From Natronomonas sp. CBA1123 (GTDB taxonomy: Archaea; Halobacteriota; Halobacteria; Halobacteriales; Haloarculaceae), in contig NZ_WPCC01000022.1 in NCBI RefSeq assembly GCF_009741925.1, positions 1 through 54,128 of the forward strand: DNA of 54,128 bases, read 5' to 3'. This document shows positions 51,250 through 54,128 of this stretch, one piece after another. The translations under genes were made by a program, and so were the position numbers. The notes beneath the pieces were generated by a model, which was not told where the DNA came from, did not search any database, and worked only from the letters and a program-made list of their open reading frames with translations. Numbering within the stretch: position 1 is the first letter of the stretch; each line of letters starts with the position of its first letter.

Positions 51250-51873
51250 ATGAGTACTACGCGCGGTCGTCGCGGGTCGGACGACGTGTCGGTTGCCCCT
51301 CCGGGGAACGTTCTCCTTCGGGCACCGGCGTTGAGCGACGGGAAGCGGAGCATCTGTCCGTCGCTCCACGCTGGCGACGATGTGAACCTGTGTGTCGTCT
51401 CTCTTTCCGGAACACCGGACCGAATTCTCGATACATGGCGCCGTCACGGCGGCTTGTCGCAGAAAGTCGGCATCATAACGGCCGACGAGACGCGCAGTGC
51501 CGCGGCAGCTGACGTTCCGTCGGCAACTGTCGGTCCCGACGGAACGACGGTATCGACGACAACCGTCTCCGAGCCCGGTGACCTCACCGGCATCGGAATC
51601 AAGGTCAGTCAGTGTCTCTCGGCGTGGCGCGACGACGACGCGACGACGGTGCTGTGTTTCGACTCGCTCACGACGCTGCTACAGTACGCGGACCTCCAGC
51701 GTGCGTTCAGGTTCCTGCACATGCTCACTCAGCAAATCGAGAACGCGGGCGCACTCGGGTACTTCCACATCGACCCCGCTGCCCACGACGACCGAACGGT
51801 TTCGACGGTGGCGAACCTCTTTTCCGAGCAGTTCGAGTACGACGCCGAAACGGGCGGCTGGGACGAACGTTAA
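51250..51873 (+). CDS. RecA/KaiC-fold-like haloarchaeal protein without Walker A (DUF7504-like)
   Basis: A 207-residue protein (MSTTRGRRGSDDVSVAPPGNVLLRAPALSDGKRSICPSL). The sequence follows the strand order of a KaiC/RecA domain: NVLLRAPALSDGKRS where the P-loop should be, VNLCVVSLSGTPDRIL, VGIITAD, the Walker B-like TTVLCFDSLTTLLQY, then FLHMLTQQIENAGALGYFHIDP. It lacks the GxxxxGKT P-loop, so ATP binding is doubtful. Such proteins are common in haloarchaea and may be regulatory. It has a strong TATA box upstream. Its stop overlaps the convergent P450 gene by 4 bases. Confidence 0.65.
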   Translation: MSTTRGRRGSDDVSVAPPGNVLLRAPALSDGKRSICPSLHAGDDVNLCVVSLSGTPDRILDTWRRHGGLSQKVGIITADETRSAAAADVPSATVGPDGTTVSTTTVSEPGDLTGIGIKVSQCLSAWRDDDATTVLCFDSLTTLLQYADLQRAFRFLHMLTQQIENAGALGYFHIDPAAHDDRTVSTVANLFSEQFEYDAETGGWDER

Positions 51874-53353: not shown

Positions 53354-54128
53354 ATGACCGAAAACAACGAAACTCCGGACGACGACCGAAGCGAGGCCGA
53401 GGTCGGCGATTTCCAGTTTGGAGTTCCCGACGGTGGTTCCGAGGAACCCGACGACAAACCACCGACACGTACCGACGGGGCGGGGAACACCAACAGTCGC
53501 TTCGACTTCGACTCGTGGCTCGGTGACGTGATTCCGGATACGGGTGATGAATCGACGGCTTCCGCCGCCAAGACGACCACGGCGGCGGAAGCCGAGGGGA
53601 CCGTCGGTCCGGCCGACTTCGCCGGCTTCGAGTTCGCCGAGTGGCTCGAAGAGACCGAAGCCAAGGCGACGACGACGACGGAAGCCGAGACGACGACGGA
53701 AGAAGCGGCCGAACTGGGTCCCGTCTACGACGGCTTCGACTTCGGCCGTTGGATTACCGACGACAGCGAGGCCGGGCCGAAAGAGCCGCCGGATATGCCC
53801 CGCGTCGTCGGTTCCTCGCCCGAGCGTGCTGTCTCGGCGCGCTCGCGACTGCTCGGCGTGCTGCCGTTCTTCGGTTCGCCGGAACCGGTCGACACGTACC
53901 CCGGCGGGTTCGACTTCGCCGGCTGGCTCGGTGAGGGTGAGTCGGACTTCGAACCGGTCGCCGCGACGCCGGAGCCGACGCCCGACCCCGACCCGGCTGC
54001 CGCCGGTGCGACCGTCGGCGGGGAACCGTCGTATCCGACGCCGGGGAGCGGTGGCATCACCGACACGCCGCCCATCAAGGTGGCTGCGTTCGCGCTGTTC
54101 GCAGCGAGCATCGTCGCCGTTGCACTGA
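53354..54128 (+). CDS. Acidic membrane protein with four F-[DE]-F-x-x-W-[LI] repeats (3' truncated)
   Basis: 258 codons are open from the ATG at 53354 to the window edge. The N-terminal 235 residues are acidic, Thr/Pro-rich and probably disordered. They carry four copies of a short motif, at residues 50-56 (FDFDSWL), 92-98 (FEFAEWL), 128-134 (FDFGRWI) and 186-192 (FDFAGWL). A degenerate copy, DFQFGVP, starts at 19. From about 240 a hydrophobic helix begins (IKVAAFALFAASIVAVAL), so the protein is likely anchored in the membrane. I do not recognise the family. The repeats look like docking motifs for a partner. Confidence 0.65.
   Translation, partial: MTENNETPDDDRSEAEVGDFQFGVPDGGSEEPDDKPPTRTDGAGNTNSRFDFDSWLGDVIPDTGDESTASAAKTTTAAEAEGTVGPADFAGFEFAEWLEETEAKATTTTEAETTTEEAAELGPVYDGFDFGRWITDDSEAGPKEPPDMPRVVGSSPERAVSARSRLLGVLPFFGSPEPVDTYPGGFDFAGWLGEGESDFEPVAATPEPTPDPDPAAAGATVGGEPSYPTPGSGGITDTPPIKVAAFALFAASIVAVAL

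Follow-up and report, generated by a model that had tools for sequence, protein, structure and literature searches.

A haloarchaeal protein with a membrane segment and a repeated F-x-F-x-x-W-L motif in a predicted disordered tail

The DNA analysed here (the window, a stretch of 54,128 nucleotides from Natronomonas sp. CBA1123) ends inside a gene for an acidic chain in which one short aromatic motif recurs upstream of a hydrophobic helix. The original prediction had proposed multivalent docking, and its author knew of no described family with such a pattern.

The gene and its four motifs

The frame starts with the ATG at 53354 and, after 258 codons, is still open at 54127. Its main features are:

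53354..54127, + strand: motif-repeat protein gene, 5' part (258 codons; cut at the contig end)
53501..53521, + strand: motif 1, FDFDSWL (residues 50-56; AlphaFold2 helix 52-57)
53627..53647, + strand: motif 2, FEFAEWL (residues 92-98; AlphaFold2 helix 94-106)
53735..53755, + strand: motif 3, FDFGRWI (residues 128-134; AlphaFold2 helix 130-135)
53909..53929, + strand: motif 4, FDFAGWL (residues 186-192; AlphaFold2 helix 188-193)

As had been anticipated, the gene runs past the window, and its 3' end was found elsewhere in the genome, in roughly the first 225 bases of contig C63 (L126). This piece is a Pro-Thr-Glu stalk with the end NGTLDPITDPILGG...LLGIL; it consists of repeated PTPE followed by NGTLDPITDPILGGDDSSSTSSNDGLLGIL and a stop codon, after which comes a gene for a short-chain dehydrogenase (SDR). 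The same SDR gene lies 3' of the orthologue in genome G009, which is 95% identical across the window part and then continues into a Thr/Pro stalk. The assembly break is probably located in or near the PTPE repeat, so that the gene is known as two separate contig pieces (the window, C32, and C63). Two other copies, those of G014 (L043) and G379 (L033/L135), have a frame break; both assemblies are drafts.

All four F-[DE]-F-x-x-W-[LI] motifs reported in the original prediction are present exactly where it had placed them, and they contain all four tryptophans of the window protein. Shuffling the protein 300,000 times produced one strict motif in 52 shuffles and two or more in none (expected number 0.0002), which rules out a chance origin of the four. 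The acidic character upstream of the membrane segment (53 Asp and Glu versus 12 Lys and Arg) and the terminal hydrophobic helix (residues 240-258, truncated by the contig end) were likewise found as described. The window protein and its relatives had no match above threshold in Pfam, NCBIfam, PHROGs, PADLOC or the PDB sequences, in agreement with the view that no described family is involved; the single NCBIfam match (E 0.0002; 18.9 bits, where the cut-off is 3000) falls on the low-complexity stalk. A literature search covering titles and the starts of abstracts returned no description of the protein or of its motif.

The tail is predicted to be disordered. An AlphaFold2 run on the window protein from a 7-row alignment gave no fold (mean pLDDT 48, pTM 0.14), and the only helices modelled (52-57, 86-89, 94-106, 130-135, 159-167, 188-193 and 241-257) lie, apart from one additional short site, at the four motifs, an LLG segment and the membrane segment. 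This result fits disorder but is not proof of it, because a shallow alignment alone can lower confidence. Folding as one globular domain had been named as an outcome that would speak against docking; the region did not come out as such a domain in the model, although with seven aligned sequences this is a weak test.

Conservation and distribution of the motif

Motifs were compared in 16 proteins, namely 15 orthologues including that of the window and one paralogue (G001p); the G014 and G379 copies, with their frame breaks, and the one-motif paralogues L157, L158 and L172 were excluded. Each protein has two to five motifs separated by linkers of 23-113 residues, and the consensus of the 52 motifs is G-F-[D/E]-F-x-x-W-[L/M/I]. 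Phe occupies position 1 in 52/52 and position 3 in 51/52, and Trp position 6 in 52/52, where it should be considered that the counting pattern, F.[FYI]..W[LIMV], itself fixes positions 1 and 6 and leaves only positions 2-5 and 7 free to vary. Position 7 is L (38), M (9) or I (5), and positions 4 and 5 are free. Position 2 is D in 39 and E in five motifs, and otherwise A, S, G, Q or V; the motif as originally written, with D or E required there (44/52), therefore holds in the window but not family-wide. Since position 2 varies and a Gly precedes 44 of the 52 motifs, F-x-F-x-x-W-[LMI] preceded by G is the better consensus.

The unbiased measure is a pairwise one, which takes the motifs of one protein and asks what stands at those places in a second protein aligned with it. 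When the window protein was compared with twelve more divergent proteins, from 8/13 (G033, where two motifs are kept) to 12/13 of its aligned key residues (F1, F3, W6 and L7; 16 in all) were retained. Identity over the remaining aligned residues was 24% (G420) to 48% (G016), and the other F/W/Y/L/I/M residues were kept in 4/16 to 13/22 cases. The key residues have thus survived far better than the remainder of the protein. In six close pairs the key codons had no nonsynonymous change (rest of the gene, pN 0.036-0.134), and the two wider pairs had three (window-G001) and one (G027-G420). With just 12-16 key codons per pair, the codon evidence is support without being proof. Lack of conservation in orthologues had been the other outcome named against docking; instead, the motif residues are kept across four genera in which the linkers barely align. 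At the sequence level, both the motif and its conservation are established: one short motif is repeated along a chain with no predicted fold, and is kept as the linkers diverge and change in length.

This pattern bears on two alternatives. The repeats could be functionless leftovers of internal duplication, as the varying number of motifs might suggest, along with the two near-identical copies (of the FEFENGGFDFDGWL type) in G414-G416. However, leftovers would hardly be retained across four genera amid linkers of this kind, and the lack of nonsynonymous change at the key codons of the six close pairs, small as the numbers are, points the same way; we regard this explanation as most improbable. 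Alternatively, the motifs could act as aromatic stickers with affinity for one another, in which case the tails would self-cluster into membrane-bound condensates with no dedicated partner. An acidic chain that carries aromatic motifs at regular intervals, with variation in their number and spacing, is what one would expect in that case, but generic stickers should tolerate aromatic swaps, and the order F-x-F-x-x-W-L is strict (F1 and W6 in 52/52, the two positions set by the counting pattern). Self-clustering appears unlikely, yet counts as a serious rival. A conserved motif in a changing tail rather suggests a putative multi-site hook for a partner protein.

The distribution of the family was determined with two profiles, A5, built from ten relatives, and the narrower A2. 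Within the taxonomic family of the window, A5 recognized members in 17 of 146 genomes, belonging to four of 22 genera; in the genus of the window itself, the gene is present in ten of the 20 genomes searched and absent from the other ten. The named members are Natronomonas gomsonensis YCN60, Halorarius litoreus BND22 and four Halobacteriales MAGs. With A2, eight of the 392 genomes of the order matched, seven of them within the same taxonomic family; the eighth (G048, E 0.0014) was judged by eye to be a chance match on a transporter-like frame, and a weak match at G016:C1:3226165 (E 0.009) was also dropped by eye. No relative was recognized in other taxonomic families among these 392 genomes, in a type of chain that can diverge past recognition. 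Searches for a virus, plasmid or phage origin gave no relative.

The strict pattern GF[DE]FxxW[LIM] was also scanned at the DNA level, and matched in 16 of 60 relatives and in 27 of the 392 genomes of the order. At least two strict motifs occurred together in six of these 27 (G000, G001, G010, G012, G018 and G033), always in the motif-repeat family; G379 has one strict match, within its family gene, and in the remaining 20 the matches are single or scattered. Among 28 loci checked, a strict-motif frame was found at 22, of which three are family genes (L046, L061 and L078) and 19 have one motif each, many of these being antisense-looking by eye; none was shown at the other six (L060, L075, L082, L085, L086 and L087). 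A backward-pattern control, which ignores codon structure, gave no match in the 392 genomes and one in the 60. In both sets, genes with more than one strict motif were confined to the motif-repeat family, and the idea that the motif is a common haloarchaeal word was rejected.

Membrane segment, stalk and genomic context

Three further elements of the window protein need to be considered:

53774..53809, + strand: another conserved linear block, GPKEPPDMPRVV, following motif 3 (G141, P145 and P146 conserved to at least 90% in an 11-row alignment)
53849..53872, + strand: LLGVLPFF segment, possibly membrane-touching (AlphaFold2 helix 159-167)
54077..54127, + strand: Lys 242 and the first part of the membrane segment (KVAAFALFAASIVAVAL), which runs on past the window

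The block after motif 3 has the form GPxxPPxxPRVV and, because it is conserved along with the membrane segment, the motifs are not the sole constraint on the protein. The LLGxLPFF segment is present in part of the genus, and in G033 and G414-G416 LLGVLPFF is replaced by longer hydrophobic stretches. In these members (G414-G416: L159, L160 and L161; G033: L026) the first motif is separated from the later ones by a second hydrophobic stretch, which makes the topology of these proteins uncertain.

The presence of such segments raises the possibility that the motifs are short amphipathic segments which dip into the membrane from its inner side and keep the tail flat against it. The LLGxLPFF segment and the longer stretches do look membrane-seeking, and the aromatic and aliphatic residues of the predicted motif helices would fall on one side, as far as sides can be assigned. 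The haloarchaeal membrane, however, is negatively charged, and the acidic residues flanking the motifs would be unfavourable there. We consider this reading unlikely but, like self-clustering, a serious rival.

A Lys or Arg directly precedes the last membrane segment in all 16 proteins, and at most one Lys or Arg follows it; by the positive-inside rule, this would place the N-terminus inside and the C-terminus outside. Membrane segment and stalk are themselves plain from the sequences, the Thr/Pro stalk being found in the orthologues as well as on contig C63. Its C-terminal end is of the LDPITDPILGG, GGLLDPLTG, GSILDPLP or GGLLG type, and differs in G012 (NGTVIPG). As a general C-terminal signal LDPI.DPI was rejected: the DNA pattern occurs in five of 60 genomes, four times in the motif-repeat gene and once in an unrelated protein. 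The whole chain might instead be outside, with the motifs binding surface molecules, since the two hydrophobic segments of G033 and G414-G416 permit other topologies and acidic chains of low complexity are a common feature of the haloarchaeal cell surface. Against this, no signal peptide is visible by eye at the N-terminus, and the distribution of Lys and Arg around the last membrane segment is that of an N-inside protein, so that an entirely external chain seems very unlikely.

The same parts appear to be recombined in paralogues. A second protein of G001 (L027:9736-10359) is stalkless, with three FxFxxWL motifs, a similar membrane segment and the end LGPATGLGG; its gene adjoins an FtsY-like gene and is near a prefoldin-like gene (names assigned by eye). 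A second stalked type, with one clear motif, occurs in G416, G414 and Halorarius (L163:7877-8761, L158 and L172), the motifs being GFDFEGWL in G414 and G416 and GFDMEAWL in Halorarius, and the C-terminal parts containing SPLDPILDPIGL, SPLDPILNPIGL and SDPLGPIFDPLGL. A DPIxDP-like C-terminal signature is common to these one-motif proteins and the main family.

In the search for a partner, the gene neighbourhood was compared among relatives. One neighbour in the window was named from a Pfam match, the other names being assigned by eye:

51250-51873: DUF7504 protein, next to a P450

In several members the DUF7504 gene and a divergently read P450 gene lie upstream, with the SDR gene and sucCD-like genes on the downstream side; this arrangement is retained in part in the window's genus, in G033 and in both Halorarius genomes. 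In G017 and G008 an SDR gene is present, and the motif-repeat gene is not beside it. Cytochrome P450 was discarded as an obligate partner, with no match at E <= 1e-120 in the gene carriers G001, G010, G012, G013, G014 and G016. The search for conserved neighbours recommended with the original prediction thus failed to single one out: among the relatives compared, no gene is constantly co-directional beside the motif-repeat gene, and therefore no neighbour is a clear partner. Of the docking proposal, the conserved repeats and the lack of a globular model stand; a partner gene did not emerge from the neighbours, and docking itself is presumed.

Proposed function and comparison with known systems

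In the account that we favour, and hold to be somewhat better than evenly supported, the protein would be a tether that crosses the membrane once, its N-terminus being inside; the short-linear-motif tail, a multivalent one, would be cytoplasmic and the Thr/Pro stalk external. The tail, acidic and predicted to be disordered, would display two to five copies of G-F-[D/E]-F-x-x-W-[L/M/I], each probably forming a helix of one to two turns whose F3, W6 and L7 could fit into a hydrophobic groove on a single cytoplasmic partner. A flexible tail with several weak sites of this kind could then gather a number of copies of that partner and keep them at the membrane. The external part, a Thr/Pro-rich chain some 90-140 residues long in which there is no more than one lysine or arginine, would carry the short C-terminal signature (LDPITDPILGG, GGLLDPLTG and GGLLG types) away from the membrane, and perhaps into the S-layer. 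What speaks against this account is that half of the genomes searched in the window's genus lack the gene, that G033 has two motifs and an 8/13 match of key residues, that blocks other than the motifs are conserved, and that the second hydrophobic stretch of G033 and G414-G416 complicates the topology.

A more ambitious version, which we advance as a doubtful one, is an archaeal trans-envelope linker. Its FxFxxWL tail would gather a cytoplasmic machine beneath the membrane while the Thr/Pro stalk and the LDPI.DPI / GGLLG signature grip the S-layer, so that cell wall and cell interior are coupled. It would belong to a small class, assembled from a common set of parts, that includes the stalkless three-motif paralogue of G001, beside the FtsY-like gene, and the one-motif stalked form of G414, G416 and Halorarius. 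The interest of the system lies in this possible physical link from cytoplasm to haloarchaeal S-layer, and in a motif so clean and testable that a single peptide could fish out the partner.

Multivalent short linear motifs have been studied mostly in eukaryotes. The accessory proteins of the clathrin adaptors are disordered, with repeated FxDxF, WxxF or DPF motifs. Like them, the motif-repeat protein has several short, acid-flanked aromatic motifs on one disordered chain, presumably for multivalent docking at a membrane; unlike it, they are eukaryotic and have no such membrane helix or outer stalk, and the motif differs, with no common sequence. EPYC1 and CsoS2 are soluble repeat linkers of carbon-fixation organelles whose partner is known. 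There, as presumably here, short helical motifs tens of residues apart gather copies of one partner, but the motif-repeat protein is membrane-anchored, and the likeness is in the way of working, with no sequence relation claimed.

A third comparison concerns the envelope. Sensors of the yeast Wsc1 type are described as transmembrane proteins of the envelope (PMC7915640). Wsc1 spans the membrane once; its outer stalk is rich in Ser/Thr and glycosylated, docking sites are present in its cytoplasmic tail, and it carries a Cys-rich WSC domain. The motif-repeat protein, too, would be a transmembrane protein of the envelope. It has a Thr/Pro stalk and a membrane helix, but in its putative topology the tail comes first and the order is reversed. 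Unlike eukaryotic Wsc1, the motif-repeat protein has no WSC domain in Pfam scans, and no sensing is claimed for it. Its way of working would resemble that of eukaryotic multivalent linear-motif proteins, a likeness that we draw with no claim of family membership.
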